Positions 1 to 7,943 of a DNA stretch of 10,016 nucleotides are shown here, one piece after another. This stretch comes from Thiotrichaceae bacterium (lineage in GTDB: Bacteria > Pseudomonadota > Gammaproteobacteria > Thiotrichales > Thiotrichaceae), in assembly GCA_027024625.1 (NCBI GenBank), contig JALVRY010000399.1, positions 1-10,016 on the forward strand. Reading direction: 5' to 3'. How positions within the stretch are numbered: the stretch's first letter is position 1; each line of letters starts with the position of its first letter. The notes beneath the pieces were generated by a model that did not search any database, was not told where the DNA came from, and saw only the letters and a list, made by a program, of their open reading frames with translations. The translations under genes were made by a program, and so were the position numbers.

Positions 1-423
1 TTCTTTGTTAAATGGATCATTATCAGGTATGACAATATGTACTCTTGCGATAATAACTCCATCTATTTGAGATAATGTTTCCTGCACACTCTGTGATAAT
101 GCATAGATGTATCGTACACGTTCTTCTAAAGGAGATGAAACTAAACCTTCTTTTTTGAATAAGTCTCCGATAGCAATTGATTTTTCATGTGGGTAGCCGC
201 TTTCTTTGAGTAATTCAACAGCATTTGGAATATCGGATTCTTCGACGAATAGTGTGAAGTTTTTTTCTTTTTTATTTATTTTCTTCTCTGCATCAATATC
301 GTTTCTCATTAGCAGGGCTAGCATGCTATTAACATCACTTTCAGACAAACCACTATATAGCTCTACACGGCAACCTGACAGTAGCAGTACACTGATTAAC
401 AGGATGATTATTCTTTTTTTCAT
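1..423 (-). CDS. sctJ: SctJ, T3SS inner-membrane ring lipoprotein (partial, C-terminus beyond window edge)
   Basis: Inner MS-ring lipoprotein of the T3SS basal body (YscJ/PrgK/EscJ family). The visible 141 codons start MKKRIIILLISVLLLSGC, a lipoprotein signal peptide with lipobox LSGC and lipidated Cys18, followed by RVELYSGLSESDVNSMLALL, the hallmark opening of the YscJ ring-building domain. Further family segments follow: a stretch around FVEESDIPNAVELLK, then LFKKEGLVSSPLEERVRY and VIIARVHIVIPD. The reading frame is open to base 1, so the second ring-building domain and the transmembrane segment lie outside the window. The ATG is preceded by GGGGA about 8 nt upstream. It is the last visible gene of the operon, 131 bp after sctI. 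That gap holds only a weak inverted repeat (GGTAATG at 498-504, CATTACC at 533-539). Identification is firm. Confidence 0.95.
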   Translation of the reverse strand, partial: MKKRIIILLISVLLLSGCRVELYSGLSESDVNSMLALLMRNDIDAEKKINKKEKNFTLFVEESDIPNAVELLKESGYPHEKSIAIGDLFKKEGLVSSPLEERVRYIYALSQSVQETLSQIDGVIIARVHIVIPDNDPFNKE

Positions 424-554: not shown

Positions 555-1106
555 TTAGCCACTGGATCTAAATAGTGTTTTAAATCCTGTGCTTACATTC
601 TTAACAATGGCTGAGAATATTGCCATATTAGTACTCCATACTCTCATTTCCATAAATTTTTGATTGACTAATTTTTTACTCTTTTTTAACTCTTTAAGCT
701 CAGTAATAGAGTCTTGAAGAGCTTTTTCTATCTGCGAAATACCGTTGTCAGAAGTATTTGTTCGAATATCCATATTAGTTCTATGTTTGTTATTGTCTAC
801 TGTTCTGATAGTGGATATCTCTTTTTTACTTATATCTTTTGGTGCTAGGATATTTCCAATATCGATTGCATTACTTTTGATGCTATTATAATTTTTATTA
901 GCAGTTAGTAATTTATCGAGAATCCCATTGTTGACAGGCGGGTTATTACCATATTGGAAGCTAGTGAGATTACTTGATTCCGCTTTTTGTAAAATGCTAT
1001 CAAATTTTGTAACAGCGCTTGAATCGGCAGTTTTTAATGCAATAGGATCAACGTCCTGATTTATATTGGGTAGGGTAATAACGGCACTTTGTATCGATTC
1101 AATCAT
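555..1106 (-). CDS. sctI: SctI, T3SS inner-rod protein (long form)
   Basis: Candidate inner rod subunit (YscI/PrgJ/HrpB2 type), which links the export apparatus to the needle and takes part in substrate switching. The C-terminal part carries the recognisable signal: a helical stretch at about 144-180 with KFMEMRVWSTNMAIFSAIVK and VSTGFKTLFRSSG at the very end, as in SctI proteins that end in a conserved amphipathic helix. The N-terminal segment ADSSAVTKFDSILQKAE (27-43) resembles the short conserved motif near the start of HrpB2/YscI proteins. Between them is an Asn/Ser/Lys-rich region of about 80 residues of low complexity. At 183 residues it is longer than the usual 80-145. The start codon is supported by AAGGAG 9 nt upstream. 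It lies 33 bp after sctG and directly before sctJ, the yscI position. Confidence 0.85.
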   Translation of the reverse strand: MIESIQSAVITLPNINQDVDPIALKTADSSAVTKFDSILQKAESSNLTSFQYGNNPPVNNGILDKLLTANKNYNSIKSNAIDIGNILAPKDISKKEISTIRTVDNNKHRTNMDIRTNTSDNGISQIEKALQDSITELKELKKSKKLVNQKFMEMRVWSTNMAIFSAIVKNVSTGFKTLFRSSG

Positions 1107-1139: not shown

Positions 1140-1505
1140 TTAGCCATTGAGATAAACGGCTGCGATAGTTTTTTCGTCTTCGTTACCTTTTTCTGCTAGT
1201 TGTTGAAATAGTGACTGGGCTTGATCTGCTTTACCTGAGTCGGCTAATGCCATCCCGAGGAAACAAATTGCGGTTGTATTATCAGGGTCTACACTTAGGA
1301 CATCATCCCTAAGAATTGTGATTGCATCATCATGGCGACCACCGTAAATTCTGGCAATGGCAACGCCTACTTTAGCTGCTGGTTGCCCCTCACAATTTGC
1401 TTCTACGCCATCCATGATGATTTGCCCCTTATCAATATGACCTTTAAAGCACGCCATATAACCAATTTGAGCGAGTATTTGAACAAGTTCAGTTGCAATA
1501 TTCAT
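1140..1505 (-). CDS. sctG: SctG, TPR-type T3SS needle chaperone
   Basis: Small helical repeat protein of 121 residues without signal peptide, so cytoplasmic. Repeating A/G-rich helix pairs (AAKVGVAIARIYGGRHDDAI at about 43-62, TAICFLGMALADSGKADQAQ at 78-97) fit tetratricopeptide repeats. In Ysc/Psc systems, YscG/PscG is a TPR protein of about 115 residues that, together with YscE, holds the needle subunit monomeric before export. Length, fold and place between the putative needle gene and sctI all agree with SctG. HrpB1/HrpK proteins of plant pathogens are similar TPR proteins and are the main alternative name. AGGGGA lies about 5 nt before the ATG. A 6-bp inverted repeat (AACTAT 1540-1545, ATAGTT 1551-1556) stands in the leader. 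No YscH-like gene follows; only 33 bp separate it from sctI. Confidence 0.8.
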   Translation of the reverse strand: MNIATELVQILAQIGYMACFKGHIDKGQIIMDGVEANCEGQPAAKVGVAIARIYGGRHDDAITILRDDVLSVDPDNTTAICFLGMALADSGKADQAQSLFQQLAEKGNEDEKTIAAVYLNG

Positions 1506-1748: not shown

Positions 1749-1991
1749 TTAGCCTCGAGAGAAAGCTTGAGACGTTTGTTTTGCTTCATTCAACATTTTG
1801 GTTACAGCATCATTCTTAATACTGTCCTGTGTAGATTCTGCAGCAATCCTTTGCATCTCACTGCGAAATTTTTCAATTGCATTTTGTGACGCATCTTGAC
1901 TTTCTACGCCAGCTTGAAGGGCTTGAGTTTGTAGTGATAAGCCTTGGCTTGCATTTGCACCACCGACTCCGAAAGCATTTTCCATTTCCAT
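1749..1991 (-). CDS. Putative T3SS needle subunit (SctF position, divergent)
   Basis: An 80-residue, signal-less, helical and Ala/Ser/Gln-rich protein. It has a Gly/Asn-rich start (FGVGGANASQG, 7-17) and then a long predicted helix rich in Gln, Ala and Glu, ending in KQTSQAFSRG. Size, absence of cysteine and composition fit a T3SS needle or pilus subunit. Its place between SctE and SctG, the two chaperones of the Ysc needle protein, is the yscF position. However, I do not see the central P-(S/D)-(N/D)-P turn of YscF/PrgI/MxiH needles, nor their conserved C-terminal Ile/Lys pattern. The function is therefore inferred mainly from context; HrpE/HrpY-type Hrp pilins are of similar length and composition. 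GGAG lies 8 nt before the chosen ATG; a second in-frame ATG is two codons later. It is flanked on both sides by gaps of more than 230 bp with hairpins. Confidence 0.6.
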   Translation of the reverse strand: MEMENAFGVGGANASQGLSLQTQALQAGVESQDASQNAIEKFRSEMQRIAAESTQDSIKNDAVTKMLNEAKQTSQAFSRG

Positions 1992-2225: not shown

Positions 2226-2423
2226 CTATTCTTGCTCTACTACAAAAATTGCAGCTTCAACCGCTTTTAGCAACTTATCTGCCTTATCATATTCCTCTGG
2301 TTGAAGTCCTTTATCTAGTTCAGTTCTAACTTCAACTGCTGTTTCATTGAGCTTAATTAAAAGCTGATTTTTATAATCCCCATCAAGGTTGTTTTCTTCC
2401 AGATTGTTTTGCATCTGTAGCAT
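2226..2423 (-). CDS. sctE: SctE, small T3SS needle co-chaperone
   Basis: A 65-residue, all-helical cytoplasmic protein. Its C-terminal half, with KGLQPEEYDKADKLLKAVEA followed by AIFVVEQE, matches the layout of YscE/PscE: a basic-glycine turn, an aromatic in a short helix, then an Ala-rich helix ending in a hydrophobic run. YscE pairs with the TPR protein YscG to hold the needle subunit YscF before export. The frame is open upstream to a TTG at 2444, but I chose the ATG at 2423 because AAGGA stands 8 nt before it and the resulting 65 residues equal the usual length of about 66. It overlaps the end of sctD by 41 bp, suggesting translational coupling. A later ATG (2414) is also possible. Confidence 0.78.
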   Translation of the reverse strand: MLQMQNNLEENNLDGDYKNQLLIKLNETAVEVRTELDKGLQPEEYDKADKLLKAVEAAIFVVEQE

Positions 2424-3708
2424 TATCGTTATCCTTTTTTCCAAAATAGACAGGTATTTCTATGTCATTATGACGTAGTAAAATTTTGTCAGAAGTTATT
2501 GATTTCACATAATAACCTTCACCTAGATGAGAACCCACCAAGTATTTTTTGTCATCTTTGGATGTGATAAAAGGTACTTTACCTACGCTAACCCCACGTA
2601 TTGCCAATTTAAACCGGCTTCGAGGACTTTGTAGGTTTTCAACTAAGTCAGGGATATTTCCGTGTTTTTCAAAAAATTTATTTCTTACTTTTTCCCAGCG
2701 GTTAATTTCTTCATCTGTTAATTCACCTGATATTGTGATTTTTCCTTCTTTGATAGCCAAAGAAATACGTTTCTTGAATGGCTCTTTGTTTAGGTAGGTG
2801 CGAAACTTTTCTAATTGTTGTTGTAATGAATCTACTTTTGCATCTTGAATGCTGTTGATACCACCTATATCGCGGAGTATGGTTTGCTGAGCTTTATTCC
2901 AATTTGAAGCATTTTTCACATAACCTTCTGCGATTAGTTCACCATCTTTCTTCATTGTAAAGTGAATGTCTGATTCACCATAAGACTTTGAGATGTAGTT
3001 TGCGTGCTCAACTAGCTCTTTATCAATCCAAATCCGATAAGCGACGGGTTTACCCAGATTTTCAATTTTCTTGATTAATTCTAGTTTTTCTTTCTCATTT
3101 TTTACGTAGCCACGGATACGAAGTGTATTATTCTTTGTTTCTTCAACGGTTAGACCAGAGAAGCCCAGTTTATCAATTGTGGTTTGTGTTTCTTGTGCTA
3201 GTTTTTTTGTGCTACCTGTAGATTGTATAAAGTTTGTAATATCTGATTGAAAATAGAGAATATTTGCTAGCAATAAGATACCCAGACCACCTAATAAATA
3301 TCCCCACAATGATGTAGATTTGTTTGTGTTTGATTTCCCTCTTTGCTTTTGTCTTACACTACTCTTTTGAAATTTAGGGCGCCTGATTCGAGGCCATTTT
3401 TGTGTAATAGAGCCGATAGCAAAGTTTATTTTACCAATGGTAACAATTTGGTAAGGGCGTAATTTTGTGTCATTCCCACCAATATCTTTGCCTGCAATAT
3501 AGACAGGTTTAGCAAGAGGATGAATAAATATGCCCTTGGCTGTAACAATAAGCTTAATGTGTTGTGGAGCAATGAATTTATCATGAAATATAATTTCACA
3601 GTCTGTTGAGTTGCCAATGATGTAACTACCAGTTTTTAAAGTTATCTTAGCTCCTGAATTTGGACCTGAAAATACTTTAAGAAGGCAGATGTCTTTTGTT
3701 TGTGTCAT
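2383..3708 (-). CDS. sctD: SctD, T3SS outer MS-ring protein with FHA domain
   Basis: Single-pass inner-membrane ring protein of the basal body (YscD/PscD/EscD family), joining the SctJ ring to the secretin. Residues 1-105 form a cytoplasmic forkhead-associated-like domain (GSYIIGNSTDCEIIF at 27-41, IAPQHIKL at 46-53). A basic linker (107-130) follows, then one transmembrane helix at about 134-153 (LWGYLLGGLGILLLANILYF). The periplasmic part has repeated ring-building/BON-like modules (about 174-235, 246-290 and 312-350). It ends in a conserved small domain with RGVSVGKVPFI and VGSHLGEGYYVKSI. Length of 441 is normal for the family. The ATG overlaps the stop of the SctC-like gene as ATGA, and the tail overlaps sctE by 41 bp. 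Identification is firm. Confidence 0.93.
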   Translation of the reverse strand: MTQTKDICLLKVFSGPNSGAKITLKTGSYIIGNSTDCEIIFHDKFIAPQHIKLIVTAKGIFIHPLAKPVYIAGKDIGGNDTKLRPYQIVTIGKINFAIGSITQKWPRIRRPKFQKSSVRQKQRGKSNTNKSTSLWGYLLGGLGILLLANILYFQSDITNFIQSTGSTKKLAQETQTTIDKLGFSGLTVEETKNNTLRIRGYVKNEKEKLELIKKIENLGKPVAYRIWIDKELVEHANYISKSYGESDIHFTMKKDGELIAEGYVKNASNWNKAQQTILRDIGGINSIQDAKVDSLQQQLEKFRTYLNKEPFKKRISLAIKEGKITISGELTDEEINRWEKVRNKFFEKHGNIPDLVENLQSPRSRFKLAIRGVSVGKVPFITSKDDKKYLVGSHLGEGYYVKSITSDKILLRHNDIEIPVYFGKKDNDNATDAKQSGRKQP

Positions 3709-4349
3709 TGTTTTTTCTCATCAAGGTATAGATTGTCTTTTGTTAAGATACGCACCTTAGAATTAATATTGTTGCCACCTTTTTCTGGATTTATATTGCT
3801 GTAGTTAACGCGTCCTTCTTTATTTACCCATTTGAATACTTTATCGTTACTGGGTTTTTTATTATCTAATATTTCGGACATCTGTAGTACGGCACTGACA
3901 AAGCGTTCAGGCCCTTTAAAATAAACCATGTCCTCAGATTCAACTTCATTCCAATAGAATTGATCATCTAAAATGCCGATTTCTCTTAGGGTTTGGCTAA
4001 AGTCTTTTACCGAAATACGTTTTAGAGAAACAGATCCTGTTTGTATTTCATCATTTTTATAGATATAGAGTATTTCTCCATCGTAGTACCACAATAAATC
4101 ATTGGATTTGGCGAGAGATTTTAAAATGTCGATGGGATACATCTTTTTGTAATAGACACTAATGATATCGTTTACTTTTGGACTAATAACAATGCTGGTA
4201 CTCTGTGCAGATGCCATTGCTTCTAGCATGTCTTTTAGTGGCTGCTCTTCAGAATAATGAGTGTATTTTTCTTTATGCCACGGTAGCTTTTCTGCCAGTA
4301 GGCTTGTGGAAAAACAGAGAATAAACGTAAGTAATAAAATCTTTTTCAT
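3705..4349 (-). CDS. SctC-like protein: N0/N1 domains of a T3SS secretin without the pore domain
   Basis: Exported protein of 214 residues. MKKILLLTFILCFSTSLLA is a signal peptide, so I start at the ATG at 4349; the frame also has an upstream TTG at 4367. I see no good ribosome site for either. Residues 20-163 match the N-terminus of YscC: a Trp-containing opening (EKLPWHKEKY), the N0 core with SIVISPKVND (52-61), LLWYYDGEILYIYKND (85-100), and an N1-like segment with YFKGPERFVSAV (143-154). YscC continues for about 440 more residues; here the match ends. Residues 170-190 (KVFKWVNKEGRVNYSN) instead resemble a DUF4124 motif, followed by a polar tail. The stop overlaps the sctD ATG, so no lost secretin DNA follows. 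Rhizobial RhcC1, an N-terminal half secretin paired with a separate RhcC2, is the known precedent. Confidence 0.8.
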   Translation of the reverse strand: MKKILLLTFILCFSTSLLAEKLPWHKEKYTHYSEEQPLKDMLEAMASAQSTSIVISPKVNDIISVYYKKMYPIDILKSLAKSNDLLWYYDGEILYIYKNDEIQTGSVSLKRISVKDFSQTLREIGILDDQFYWNEVESEDMVYFKGPERFVSAVLQMSEILDNKKPSNDKVFKWVNKEGRVNYSNINPEKGGNNINSKVRILTKDNLYLDEKKQ

Positions 4350-4525: not shown

Positions 4526-4560
4526 ATCCTGAATCCGTGACTTCAATGCGGATTCAGGAT
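4526..4560 (-). terminator. Stem-loop at the pilR stop, probable terminator
   Basis: ATCCTGAATCCG (4526-4537) and CGGATTCAGGAT (4549-4560) form a perfect 12-bp stem with an 11-nt loop. The stem overlaps the pilR stop codon by one base. On the - strand it is followed by AATATAAC rather than a U-run, so termination may be leaky and the T3SS genes downstream on the same strand could receive read-through. Confidence 0.55.
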
Positions 4561-5966
4561 TATGTTTCTAAGACAGCTTCTTGCTTGGGATCTAGGCTGT
4601 ATTTTTGAATGCGATAACGTAGTTGTCTAAATGTCATACCAAGTAACTCTGCTGCTTTTGTTCTATTCCAGCGAGTTTGCTCCAGTGCCTGTATGATACG
4701 TGTGCGTTCATCCGCTTCATCTGGGCTCATTGATGACGGTGCCATGTTATTACAATTGGTCTTTGTTGGTGATACATGAATTGCTGTATTTTGCTGTGTT
4801 GGTGAAGGCGTGTTCTGAGGGAGTTGTAAATCATCGGGCTGAATAATATCACTTTCACACAAAGTAACAGCTCGTTCCAATATGTTTTCTAACTCACGTA
4901 CATTCCCTGGAAAGGCATAATGCTGTAGTGATGATTTTGCAACAGCGGATAAGTTCATATTGGGGAGTTGCCAACGTTGTGTGATTTTCTTTAGGAAAAA
5001 ATCAGCAAGTAGCAAAAGATCATCTTGTCGATCACGTAAGGGAGGGACTTCTAGTTTTATTACGTTAAGACGATAATATAAATCTTGACGAAAACGCCCG
5101 CTAGCGACTTCTTGTTCTAGGTTTTTATGGGTAGCACTTAATATACGAATATCAACGGCAGTTTCTTCTAAGCCACCAACAGGCTTAATCGCCTTTTCTT
5201 GGATGGCACGAAGCAACTTAACTTGCATATCTAATGGCAGATCAGCCACTTCATCAAGAAATAATGTACCGTGATCAGCGGCTTGAAATAAGCCGATTTT
5301 ATCGGTTGTTGCTCCTGTGAAGCTGCCCTTTTTATGTCCAAAAAACTCGCTTTCCATCAAGTTCTCAGGAATTGCCCCACAGTTGACAGGAACAAATTTT
5401 GCATCATTTCGAGCACTTAATTGATGAATTTGCTTTGCAACCAATTCTTTACCACTACCCGATTCTCCTTGTATATATACGGGAGCCTGACTTCGAGCAA
5501 GTTTAGAGATGGTGTTTTTGAGTTTTTGGATAGCGGGGGACTCGCCAATAATATCGGTACTTTTTTGTATTTTATCAGCTTTTGTAACTGATGGAGTCTT
5601 AGACAGTTTCAATGAATTCTGTACTAAATCACGAAGCTTTTGTAAATCGACAGGTTTAGATACAAAGTCATAAGCCCCTGCTTTTAGAGCTTCTACGGCC
5701 GTTTCCATGCTGCCATGAGCAGTGATAACTGCAACGGGAATTTGGGGGAATTCGCGTTGAATATAATAAACAATATCAATACCGTTACCATCGGGCAAAC
5801 GCATATCAGTTAGGCAAAGATCGGGCTTGTATTTTTGAATATTGACAATTGCATCTTTGACATTAGCGGCTGTAATGGTATCTAACCCCATGCGAAGTAA
5901 CGTAATTTCCAATAGTTCGCGAATATCAGGTTCATCATCGATGATAAGTACACGTTGCTGATTCAT
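4560..5966 (-). CDS. pilR: PilR, sigma-54-dependent response regulator
   Basis: NtrC-type activator of type IV pilin transcription, phosphorylated by PilS. The 468 residues comprise three parts. The receiver domain has acidic pair D10/D11, phosphoacceptor D54 in LCLTDMRLPDG, T82 and K104. The AAA+ sigma-54 interaction domain has Walker A GESGSGKE at 167-174, the loop GSFTGA in place of GAFTGA, Walker B GTLFLDEV, and FRQDLYYRLNV with the arginine fingers. The Fis-type C-terminal helix-turn-helix reads TRWNRTKAAELLGMTFRQLR. Gene order after pilS and the close resemblance of the receiver to Pseudomonas PilR (DDEPDIRELLEITL, LTDMRLPDG) favour PilR over other NtrC relatives. I prefer the ATG at 5966, which gives the usual N-terminus; a TTG at 6011 is open upstream. 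The ribosome site is weak. Its target pilin promoter is not in this window. Confidence 0.92.
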   Translation of the reverse strand: MNQQRVLIIDDEPDIRELLEITLLRMGLDTITAANVKDAIVNIQKYKPDLCLTDMRLPDGNGIDIVYYIQREFPQIPVAVITAHGSMETAVEALKAGAYDFVSKPVDLQKLRDLVQNSLKLSKTPSVTKADKIQKSTDIIGESPAIQKLKNTISKLARSQAPVYIQGESGSGKELVAKQIHQLSARNDAKFVPVNCGAIPENLMESEFFGHKKGSFTGATTDKIGLFQAADHGTLFLDEVADLPLDMQVKLLRAIQEKAIKPVGGLEETAVDIRILSATHKNLEQEVASGRFRQDLYYRLNVIKLEVPPLRDRQDDLLLLADFFLKKITQRWQLPNMNLSAVAKSSLQHYAFPGNVRELENILERAVTLCESDIIQPDDLQLPQNTPSPTQQNTAIHVSPTKTNCNNMAPSSMSPDEADERTRIIQALEQTRWNRTKAAELLGMTFRQLRYRIQKYSLDPKQEAVLET

Positions 5967-5998
5967 TATATTATAAGTTTTTTTTATTGTATTGGTTG

Positions 5999-6007
5999 AG
6001 TATAGCA
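5999..6007 (-). promoter_or_regulatory. Candidate extended -10 promoter for pilR
   Basis: On the - strand TGC-TATACT (6007-5999) matches an extended -10 element. The -35 candidate 17 nt upstream (CTGAAT) is weak. Transcription would start near 5992, about 26 nt before the pilR ATG. This would let pilR be made apart from pilS. Confidence 0.35.
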
Positions 6008-6038
6008 CCAAAATAAAAGTTATTCAGTTTTATACATG

Positions 6039-6063
6039 GCAAATAAACAAAATGCTTATTTGC
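6039..6063 (-). promoter_or_regulatory. Hairpin between pilS and pilR
   Basis: GCAAATAA (6039-6046) and TTATTTGC (6056-6063) form a perfect 8-bp inverted repeat with a 9-nt loop, 52 nt beyond the pilS stop. No U-run follows directly. It may mark the pilS 3' end or attenuate read-through into pilR. The rest of the 148-bp gap is plain A/T-rich sequence. Confidence 0.45.
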
Positions 6064-6114
6064 TGATAAATCTCTTTATATATTTATAATAACTTACTGA
6101 ATTTATATGTAATA

Positions 6115-7755
6115 TTAATGGTTTCTTCCTTTCGAGAATGTCAGGCGAAAACAACTGCCATTTTGAGCAGACTCAACATATTCTAAGTTGCCACCGTTGC
6201 TCATTGCAAGCTCTCTAGACATAAATAAACCTAATCCAGTGCCAGACTCACTGGTTGTATAAAATGGCTCAAATAAACGTAATCGATCTTCCTTGGATAC
6301 GCCTTTTCCATTGTCTGCGATGTTGAGCATAATATCGCGGGAATGGTTAGGAATACCGCCTTGAATTTCTAGCTGTAGCGTTGCAGGATCATCTGTTGCA
6401 TGTTTGATTGCATTACGGCAAAGGTTCCACATAATTTGATGCAGATGAGCAGGGTCAAAGGTGACCGTACAATCCGCAGGGGACACAAAGACCTTAATTT
6501 GATCTTGGTTCAAGGCGGACTGACTAATAAAATCATCCAAAAACTCACGTAACCAAGCTTTTAAGCGAATAGTTTCACGATTAGGATTTTTCTTGCGTGA
6601 TAAATTTAAGACGCTTTCGATAGTTAAATTCATCCGTTTCGAATTGCTCTGAATGATTTGCACCATGCGGGAATCAACTTTATCAAGATTTGGTGATTCG
6701 GATAGCAACTGTGCAGAATGGCTAATCGCACCAAGTGGATTGCGTATCTCATGGGCAATATTTGCCGTTAATTGACCTAATGAGGCAAGCTTTACTTCCT
6801 GTACGCGTTCTCGTTGCTCACTGGTATCTTCAAGGTTGATTAGCGTTGTACCTTTGGTTTGTGTGCCGAGTTGTGTAAAACGGGTGCGTAATTCCATTGT
6901 GCCTTGATGTTTAATATCGCAAGTAATGATTTTGGGGCAAATATTATCCAGCCAAACTTGTAAGTGTTTATCCAATTCTGGGGCAAATTGCCTTAATGGG
7001 CGGCTTCGCCAACTGCTGGGTTTTCCTAAAAATTCCCATGCGGTTGAGTTGATGTGACGGATTGCACCCGAGCTTTCCACCACCAAAATCCCTGATTGCA
7101 ATTCGTCCAAAATGGTTTGGTTGAGCTGAGATAAATTAGCAATATCCAAGCCACGACGTTTCGCTAATGCTGCGGTGCTGGATGTTTTTATTGCCCATTT
7201 TCCGCCTAGCCATGAGCCTGTCAAAATAAAGAGTGAGAGTAGGCCTGTTTGCAATAAATCACGGGCTTGTGATTGATGATATTTCTGTAGATAAACCTCA
7301 AGCCCAAGTAAGGCAACAATGCTAGTTGCTGTGATAAAAAGTGATATTTGACCCGGACGAATAATATTTAAGGTAAACAGAGGGATGGTCATTAATAGCC
7401 CAAGTTCGGAGATCATGCCACCTGTACTGTAAATCAGTTTTAGCATGACAACTGTGTCGGCAATGGTATTAAATGAAATCTGAGTGAGGTGATCAGGCCA
7501 CTGAATATATGTGGTAATACTGCCTGTTATCGCAAAAAAAAGATAAAGGCCAATCGCAAGAATAAATAAATGCTCATCGAGAAAATCTATATCGAGCGGA
7601 GAATAGTTGGAAAAACCAACAAAGATTAAAACACCCGCAAGTGCAAGGCGGTAGATGCTATAGAGCCATAGAATTTTCCATGGATCTCCATGCAGTGCAT
7701 CAATCGCTAAGCCGCTGGCGGCAGGTTGTCCTGATTGGCGTGCTCGAGACAGCAA
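6115..7755 (-). CDS. pilS: PilS, membrane sensor histidine kinase
   Basis: Sensor kinase of the PilSR two-component system, which in Pseudomonas senses pilin in the membrane and controls PilR. The 546 residues start with about six hydrophobic segments between 28 and 188. A PAS-like region follows (about 212-310, with SGILVVESSGAIRHINSTAW). The HisKA region has the H-box TANIAHEIRNPLGAISHSAQ with phosphoacceptor H335. The ATPase domain has the N-box HQIMWNLCRNAIKHA, G1 DNGKG (481-485), FEPFYTT and G2 TGLGL (506-510). All catalytic motifs are intact. No ATG or GTG exists near the N-terminus; TTG at 7755 is the first start after the in-frame stop TAA at 7764-7762 and has AGGGG about 9 nt upstream. 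It overlaps the upstream PP0621-like gene by 49 bp, so the two are probably translated together. Confidence 0.93.
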   Translation of the reverse strand: MLSRARQSGQPAASGLAIDALHGDPWKILWLYSIYRLALAGVLIFVGFSNYSPLDIDFLDEHLFILAIGLYLFFAITGSITTYIQWPDHLTQISFNTIADTVVMLKLIYSTGGMISELGLLMTIPLFTLNIIRPGQISLFITATSIVALLGLEVYLQKYHQSQARDLLQTGLLSLFILTGSWLGGKWAIKTSSTAALAKRRGLDIANLSQLNQTILDELQSGILVVESSGAIRHINSTAWEFLGKPSSWRSRPLRQFAPELDKHLQVWLDNICPKIITCDIKHQGTMELRTRFTQLGTQTKGTTLINLEDTSEQRERVQEVKLASLGQLTANIAHEIRNPLGAISHSAQLLSESPNLDKVDSRMVQIIQSNSKRMNLTIESVLNLSRKKNPNRETIRLKAWLREFLDDFISQSALNQDQIKVFVSPADCTVTFDPAHLHQIMWNLCRNAIKHATDDPATLQLEIQGGIPNHSRDIMLNIADNGKGVSKEDRLRLFEPFYTTSESGTGLGLFMSRELAMSNGGNLEYVESAQNGSCFRLTFSKGRNH

Positions 7756-7943
7756 TAGTAGTTACCCCTGTTTATTGTTGCTTCTTGTTCTGGAATATGC
7801 AGCCCACATACATTGCATTTGACAATATTATCGACTTTCTTTTTCTTTGCTTTTGTCAAGCGTTTCATTTCTTGTTTACGTTTGAATGATTTTATAACAA
7901 GAAAGCTGACGACAAGCAGAATGATAAGAGCTAAAACACGCAT
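7707..7943 (-). CDS. PP0621-family small membrane protein with Cys/His cluster
   Basis: A 78-residue protein. One hydrophobic segment at 2-18 (RVLALIILLVVSFLVIK) acts as a membrane anchor. A strongly basic stretch follows (19-37). The C-terminal module CNVCGLHIPEQEA...YYCCLEHA has C43, C46, C64, C65 and H68, which could bind a metal such as zinc. I recognise this as the PP0621 family, small proteins often found just upstream of pilS in gammaproteobacteria; their function is not established. It overlaps pilS by 49 bp on the same strand, which suggests a joint role or at least shared expression. The ATG at 7943 is preceded by AGGT at about 8 nt. Transcription diverges from sucC. Confidence 0.8.
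   Translation of the reverse strand: MRVLALIILLVVSFLVIKSFKRKQEMKRLTKAKKKKVDNIVKCNVCGLHIPEQEATINRGNYYCCLEHANQDNLPPAA

Follow-up and report, generated by a model that had tools for sequence, protein, structure and literature searches.

A short SctC with a DUF4124-like tail, and no recognised pore of its own, in a type III secretion system of the Thiotrichaceae

The sctC position of a type III secretion system (T3SS) locus in a genome of the Thiotrichaceae, a family of sulfur bacteria, is occupied by a short gene, here called sctC', whose product carries the periplasmic part of SctC and a DUF4124-like tail. The question raised by this locus, which was found in a stretch of 10,016 nucleotides (referred to below as the window), is whether a T3SS that seemingly has no usual exit pore ends inside the cell envelope or leaves it in some other way. 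The reading that we prefer, with a probability of about 0.65, is that a Ysc-like T3SS has turned into an exporter without a pore of its own, in which SctC is reduced to a periplasmic collar and the exit is either periplasmic or via PilQ or GspD. Such a system is of interest as a conserved natural T3SS in which the collar is under strong selection and for which our searches recognised no dedicated pore. It opens to experiment the role of the N0-N1 domains by themselves, the question whether one secretin can serve a T3SS along with another system, and the binding partner of DUF4124, which is a widespread domain of unknown function. To our knowledge, the host organisms are not known pathogens.

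The short SctC and its locus

The sctC' gene (3705..4349, minus strand, as are all window genes described here) encodes a protein of 214 aa, which was analysed by profile matches, a structure model and a homologue search. Residues 1-19 (4293..4349) read, by eye and not by a predictor, as a Sec signal peptide. They are followed by an N0 domain (residues 29-98; 4056..4265; Pfam match to residues 34-97 and model) and an N1 domain (residues 103-165; 3855..4043; Pfam Secretin_N match to residues 106-165 and model), viz. the periplasmic domains of an SctC-type ring protein. Behind these lie a DUF4124-like hairpin (residues 168-190; 3780..3848; Pfam match to residues 168-187) and a variable C-terminal end (residues 191-214; 3708..3779) of low pLDDT and loose conservation. 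The NCBIfam model of SctC is covered only from position 2 to 143 of its 463, the N2/N3 and pore domains are absent, and the secretin pore domain PF00263 was matched neither by the window protein nor by any of 32 homologues. In the alignment of these homologues N0 is matched in all 32 members and DUF4124 in 31 of them (E up to 0.01), and the hairpin residues W174, G179 and P188 are invariant. The window copy scores 18.1 bits with the DUF4124 profile (PF13511), i.e. under the cut-off of 22, and the copy of the genome G033 scores 25.1 bits, over it. The first-pass annotation had described a truncated SctC with N0 and part of N1, a DUF4124-like tail and neither N2/N3 nor pore domains, and this description was borne out by the profiles and the model.

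The stop codon of sctC' overlaps the start of sctD (2383..3708), the gene for the inner-membrane ring, which is full length and intact, as had been claimed (TIGR02500, 162.7 bits with a cut-off of 86; profile positions 3-409 of 413). Next come sctE, a YscE-like co-chaperone (2226..2444; PF08988, 22.9 bits with a cut-off of 22; TIGR02501 under its cut-off), and a candidate needle subunit gene, sctF (1749..1991), which matches no family and is named for its position between the YscE- and YscG-like genes. The latter, sctG (1140..1505), encodes a TPR co-chaperone and was recognised by a TPR match and its position; a candidate inner rod gene, sctI (555..1106), was recognised by its position and by similarity to the same gene in relatives. 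The last gene, sctJ (1..423; TIGR02544, 166.5 bits with a cut-off of 161.95), is cut by the contig end. The scan of the genome contigs gave one locus. In genus g1 the order is C'-D-E-F-G-I-J-K-L, and in G033, G027 and G059 a single locus contains sctK-L and then, on the other strand, sctO-N-V-U-T-S-R-Q, divergent from sctC'-D-E-F-G-I-J. For G033, NCBIfam models were matched over a cut-off by SctN, SctR, SctS, SctT, SctQ and SctL, and SctU scored 290 bits against a cut-off of 358. SctK, SctO and SctI of this genome matched no NCBIfam model, and these labels are therefore given by position and by similarity between loci. At the level of sequence, the export core of the machine (export gate, ATPase, C-ring and inner rings) is intact. 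Neither a ruler SctP nor a gatekeeper SctW is among the labelled genes of the loci read, as judged by label and not by profile. A gene of 400-470 aa between sctQ and sctC' was considered for the ruler and rejected, its profile match being to the transglutaminase family.

Distribution of sctC' and selection on it

A short gene in a single assembly could be a pseudogene or product of decay, or an assembly error, and some features of the data point in this direction: the assembly of the window genome is fragmented and its sctU occupies two frames, in one relative (G001) the copy at a contig end is chimeric, and in G005 a second sctC' fragment with a stop (C35:162317-162523, L102) lies near the intact copy. 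The G001 copy (L092:11151-11810, in record JALWYT010000294.1) is fused to an unrelated frame and is probably a misassembly. However, the distribution of the gene makes this explanation highly improbable. In an initial search, with the window protein as the query, 33 of 95 genomes gave a match, all of them among the 60 of the family and none among the 35 others of the class. With the alignment of 32 rows, a strong match (E below 1e-68) was obtained in 36 of 63 family genomes; the tally of 51 genomes from this search includes matches to the tail only, i.e. to other DUF4124 proteins. Six of the carriers (G027, G033, G039, G059, G095 and G096) are single contigs with the same short gene, and the stop-to-stop frames of SctC' measure 183-306 aa, the shortest being cut by a contig end. 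The replacement domain is conserved and the export operons are complete.

Selection was assessed with 34 of the 36 copies, leaving out the chimeric one of G001 and that of G009, which is cut. Pairs were kept at 0.02 < dS < 1.5, which gave 17 pairs, non-independent as they share genomes. For the 14 closest pairs dN/dS is 0.010-0.125, and for the hairpin, where defined in these pairs, it is 0.19 or less. The three most distant pairs gave 0.39, 0.09 and 0.23, and the far C-terminal end is loose. Since 36 of 63 family genomes, six of them single contigs, share this short gene and dN/dS is low, sctC' is not a product of decay but is conserved across the family under purifying selection. It was accordingly correct of the first-pass annotation to regard it as something other than a fresh frameshift, and the architecture is common to relatives. 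Neither a complete sctC in the locus nor a relative in which the frame continues into a full secretin was found.

SctV was detected in 38 of the 63 family genomes at E up to 1e-30, in 32 of them over the curated cut-off and in six as partial frames. As this threshold can let in the flagellar FlhA, which was seen in controls, the six partial calls lean also on SctU or on neighbouring genes where seen. SctV and SctC' occur together in 34 genomes. SctV was not found in the SctC'-bearing G038 and G054, which are 84% and 67% complete. SctC' was not found in the SctV-positive G004, G014, G028 and G051 (assemblies of 100 to 570 contigs), and these four genomes count against the preferred reading.

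Search for a pore

A full SctC or a pore half was sought in the window's own genome and in its relatives by means of two models, PF00263 and TIGR02516, the genome-wide search being for secretins only, and none was recognised. The SctC model is over its cut-off in none of 33 carriers. PF00263 secretins are present in 32 of these carriers (none in G001). Another 30 family genomes, of which 23 are without detected SctV, were searched as well and 29 of them gave a match; the secretin sets of T3SS-less relatives are like those of the carriers. The 11 carrier assemblies of at most 8 contigs contain three secretins each, except for G048 with four. A stand-alone secretin near other sct genes, the search for which had been proposed earlier, was not encountered in these 11: the distance from secretin to T3SS is at least 177 kb as computed (nearest in G033), and may be about 140-150 kb in G096 if this genome is circular. 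In G033 the secretins are complete proteins, viz. a PilQ and two GspD, all over cut-off and each with a GspD-type N0 match; those of the other genomes were classed by length and some by neighbours. By this classification (by length, and by profile in G033), a type IV pilus secretin is present in the closed genomes. In the genera g3 and g8, which have the T3SS, one or two secretins were counted, in assemblies of which several are fragmented. In none of the 33 and 30 genomes was an RhcC2-type pore for the family T3SS recognised, the criteria being length and position, with profiles in the case of G033.

Two candidates for a dedicated pore were rejected. One is a secretin of about 487 aa, which is confined to 4 of 63 genomes (G003, G048, G057 and G097); SctV was not detected in one of the four, G057, and in G048 this secretin is 0.56 Mb away from the T3SS. 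The other, the third secretin of G033, belongs by profile to GspD, and by eye its neighbours are gspL/M/C-like genes; a third secretin (by count and length) is missing from the T3SS-bearing g3 and g8 and present in the T3SS-less G002, G036 and G057, and for this reason it was rejected as a dedicated pore. A secretin of 560 aa occurs in G018 only.

If a dedicated pore half were present but too divergent for the secretin models, then a search defined by PF00263 and TIGR02516 would pass it by. However, the same PF00263 search detects the RhcC2-like pores of the genomes G425 and G122 as well as weak secretins down to 86 bits, and we consider a divergent pore very unlikely. An exit through an outer-membrane channel other than a secretin, encoded outside the T3SS locus, is less improbable than this but still unlikely. 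It would agree with the loci read, which contain no further obvious outer-membrane protein, and with a genome-wide search that covered secretins, but there is no candidate for such a channel and we know of no T3SS precedent for it. The first-pass annotation had raised two possibilities. One was a secretin split in two, with the pore encoded away from this locus, and for it no RhcC2-like pore tied to the T3SS was found. The other, a different outer-membrane exit, stands, beside the possibility, which the annotation had not listed, that there is no outer-membrane exit at all.

The preferred reading itself includes two branches. In one of them, which we regard as somewhat doubtful, the pore would be borrowed: PilQ or GspD would double as the outer-membrane exit of the T3SS, with the N0-N1 collar docked on it through the DUF4124 hairpin. 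We know of no direct link between DUF4124 and secretins; moreover, the same secretins occur in T3SS-less relatives, and those of G033 already bear N0 domains of their own. In six DUF4124 paralogues the domain follows the signal peptide, whereas in SctC' it is C-terminal, behind N1, and no pilus genes were seen by eye in the stretches around these six. On the other side, the type IV pilus secretin of the closed genomes would be available, and two precedents lend indirect support. According to a published proposal, RhcC1 connects SctD with RhcC2, a pore of Tad origin (consulted part of PMC3459982), and TfpC, a DUF4124 protein, is required to keep gonococcal type IV pili extended; TfpC-type proteins are, like SctC', periplasmic and carry the hairpin motif (consulted part of PMC7593972).

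In the other branch, which is tentative but has the better claim, the machine would have a periplasmic terminus, SctC' would only brace the SctD ring, and a short periplasmic filament would be formed or substrates released into the periplasm. In the Salmonella SPI-1 system, export of the needle subunit as far as the periplasm is reported to continue when the secretin is missing (consulted part of PMC3459982). No dedicated pore, convincing translocator or SctU switch motif (see below) was found, which agrees with such a terminus. However, the YscE- and YscG-like needle chaperones and a candidate needle are retained, which a purely periplasmic exporter does not obviously need, and this weighs against the branch and against the preferred reading as a whole, in which SctF and SctI are moreover identified by position alone. 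A search for the translocon (PF04888) over 36 genomes gave two matches and no convincing translocator: the protein with the SseC match in G020 has an RHS domain and was rejected, and the match in G041 is weak and under the cut-off.

Relationship to other systems and the switch motif of SctU

In a scan of 369 genomes of the class 8 had a match, five of them outside the family. Four of these (G224, G122, G256 and G425) have a short SctC, and the 411-aa frame of G127 is, by eye, a pilus-type secretin. The short SctC of G425 is nearly identical to a Vreelandella titanicae protein, and a 431-aa RhcC2-like secretin lies two genes away from it. This closed gammaproteobacterial genome has a split secretin of the rhizobial type, with RhcC1- and RhcC2-like parts (L106:11998-13293 and 9971-10570). 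In G122 an RhcC2-like secretin adjoins sctU, on a different contig from sctC, and G256 gave weak RhcC2-like matches only. G224, from another family, has a DUF4124-like tail that scores 18.9 bits, under the cut-off, and only two long secretins, in 430 contigs; no match was obtained in four further genomes from the family to which it belongs.

The comparison with the split RhcC1/RhcC2 of rhizobia, made in the first-pass annotation, is apt as to anatomy but not as to lineage. Like SctC', RhcC1 (NolW) is about 200-230 aa long, with a signal peptide, only N0-N1 and no pore, and goes with a SctU without NPTH in the copies read. In contrast to SctC', it has no DUF4124 tail (as seen in the non-family rows of alignment A2, G224 excepted), it belongs to a separate SctV clade, and an RhcC2-like gene accompanies it in 5 of 7 short-SctC loci read as long stretches (G425, NGR234b, S. 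meliloti GR4, Bosea, B. barranii, S. alkalisoli and Bradyrhizobium CCBAU 53340). In the last two no RhcC2-like gene was found within 24-30 kb, for CCBAU 53340 by annotation only. In an SctV tree of 20 rows, 8 of them from the family and none from Myxococcales, the family forms one clade (100/100) and the Rhc rows stand apart (100/100). Due to this position outside the Rhc clade, the truncation of SctC probably arose independently of RhcC1, the pore half being lost and the hairpin gained. G224 joins the family at 81/64 only, and the link to Ysc-like systems is not resolved in this tree. Among the plasmid matches listed, an even sample of the ranking beside which one unlisted record has a place corresponding to 60-80% identity, the best SctV identities are those to Photobacterium, Aeromonas and Yersinia (47-49%), and the Ysc-family systems of Photobacterium, Yersinia and Nitratidesulfovibrio lie at 45-49%. 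The latter share YscE- and YscG-like genes with the family, and Nitratidesulfovibrio also the order C-D-E-F-G-I-J. However, SctC is full length in the two Ysc-family systems read (623 aa, and 720 aa in Nitratidesulfovibrio), and Nitratidesulfovibrio has the NPTH motif, sctW and translocon genes.

T3SSs without a pore gene have been reported before, from Myxococcales and as Rhc-III of R. etli (consulted parts of PMC3459982, PMC3574062 and PMC3973906). In the R. etli system only rhcC1 was found (PMC3574062, PMC3973906), so that, as in the family, an N-terminal SctC half has no pore gene in its cluster; it differs, by its description in these parts, in belonging to the Rhc family, in its restriction to few strains and in that no DUF4124 is reported. 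The non-flagellar T3SS of Myxococcales, or 'needleless T3SS*', is described in the consulted parts of PMC3459982 and PMC12075869 as an export core without secretin or translocon, which has no needle and no reported SctC part and works with a Kil Tad-like pilus, whereas the family T3SS keeps the N0-N1 part of SctC and the needle chaperones. In the open-access papers that were searched, no description of the Thiotrichaceae system was found (subscription papers were not covered). As far as these searches go, the lineage, the replacement by DUF4124, the loss of NPTH and the family-wide conservation are new.

Autocleavage of SctU at NPTH is the switch from early to late substrates. SctU was searched in 40 family genomes, with the G000 copy unreadable and no match in G032, and the motif is present in none of the 38 readable copies, all of which have a one-residue gap at this place. 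The SctU of the G224 T3SS is similar, with the same gap and no NPTH, and all seven Rhc-type copies (G425, G122, NGR234b, GR4, S. alkalisoli, Bosea and B. barranii) are without NPTH. In the same alignment NPTH is present in two flagellar FlhB copies, and it is also present in the three other T3SSs compared (Nitratidesulfovibrio, Mycetohabitans and Bradyrhizobium NK6b). The copies compared are those of L176-L215, L108, L206, L218, L223 and L225-L227; G256 was left out and the Mesorhizobium huakuii frame is unreadable. All readable systems with a short SctC, viz. the 38 family copies, G224 and the 7 of Rhc type, are therefore without NPTH, which suggests, in a small sample with related family copies, that reduction of the pore may be associated with loss of the substrate switch. 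However, it would be incorrect to interpret the loss of NPTH alone as proof of a non-injecting machine, as proteins are secreted by rhizobial T3SSs, whose SctU copies, in so far as read, are without NPTH too. Without a recognised outer-membrane pore of its own, and with the autocleavage motif of SctU lost, the family machine is probably not a standard injectisome.

In terms of the preferred reading, the pore half of SctC would have been lost in an ancestor of the Thiotrichaceae T3SS lineage (and of at least one related genome), the DUF4124 hairpin taking its place. We infer the assembly of the collar, the exit route and the role of the hairpin: the N0-N1 part of SctC' is most likely assembled into a collar that sits on the SctD ring, as it does in basal bodies already described. 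The machine keeps the export gate, ATPase, C-ring, rod and candidate needle. It would be a one-mode exporter, whose substrates are either delivered into the periplasm or passed on to PilQ or GspD as the resident secretin, and the hairpin may serve for docking; docking or wall binding had been suggested for the tail in the first-pass annotation. A more specific version, in which the exit is via the type IV pilus (or type II) secretin through the collar and docking hairpin, and the switch-less system serves the cell's own envelope or surface and not host injection, we regard as rather speculative, and as improbable in its entirety.

Several genes near the T3SS loci were also noted. Of 9 loci read, 5 have a transglutaminase-family gene (PF20085, 1.7e-17 to 3.1e-25) between sctQ and sctC', present twice in G005 (L065:9825-11114, L069:8844-10121, L071:9413-10786, L073:7934-9163, and L077:10994-12196 and 12720-14120). 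It has no signal peptide by eye, and its product is a possible T3SS substrate. Upstream of sctC', the window contains genes for an NtrC-family regulator and a histidine kinase and a PP0621-family gene (4560-7943, minus strand); the order of the two-component pair is reminiscent of PilS/PilR, names for which NCBIfam gave no confirmation. Between sctU and sctV, several loci encode a membrane protein whose C-terminus resembles NfeD, and also a STAS-like protein (L063:6859-7386; L073:2998-3321 and 3318-3899), and in G033 a transglycosylase with SLT and LysM domains is encoded near sctK (L063:508-1530).
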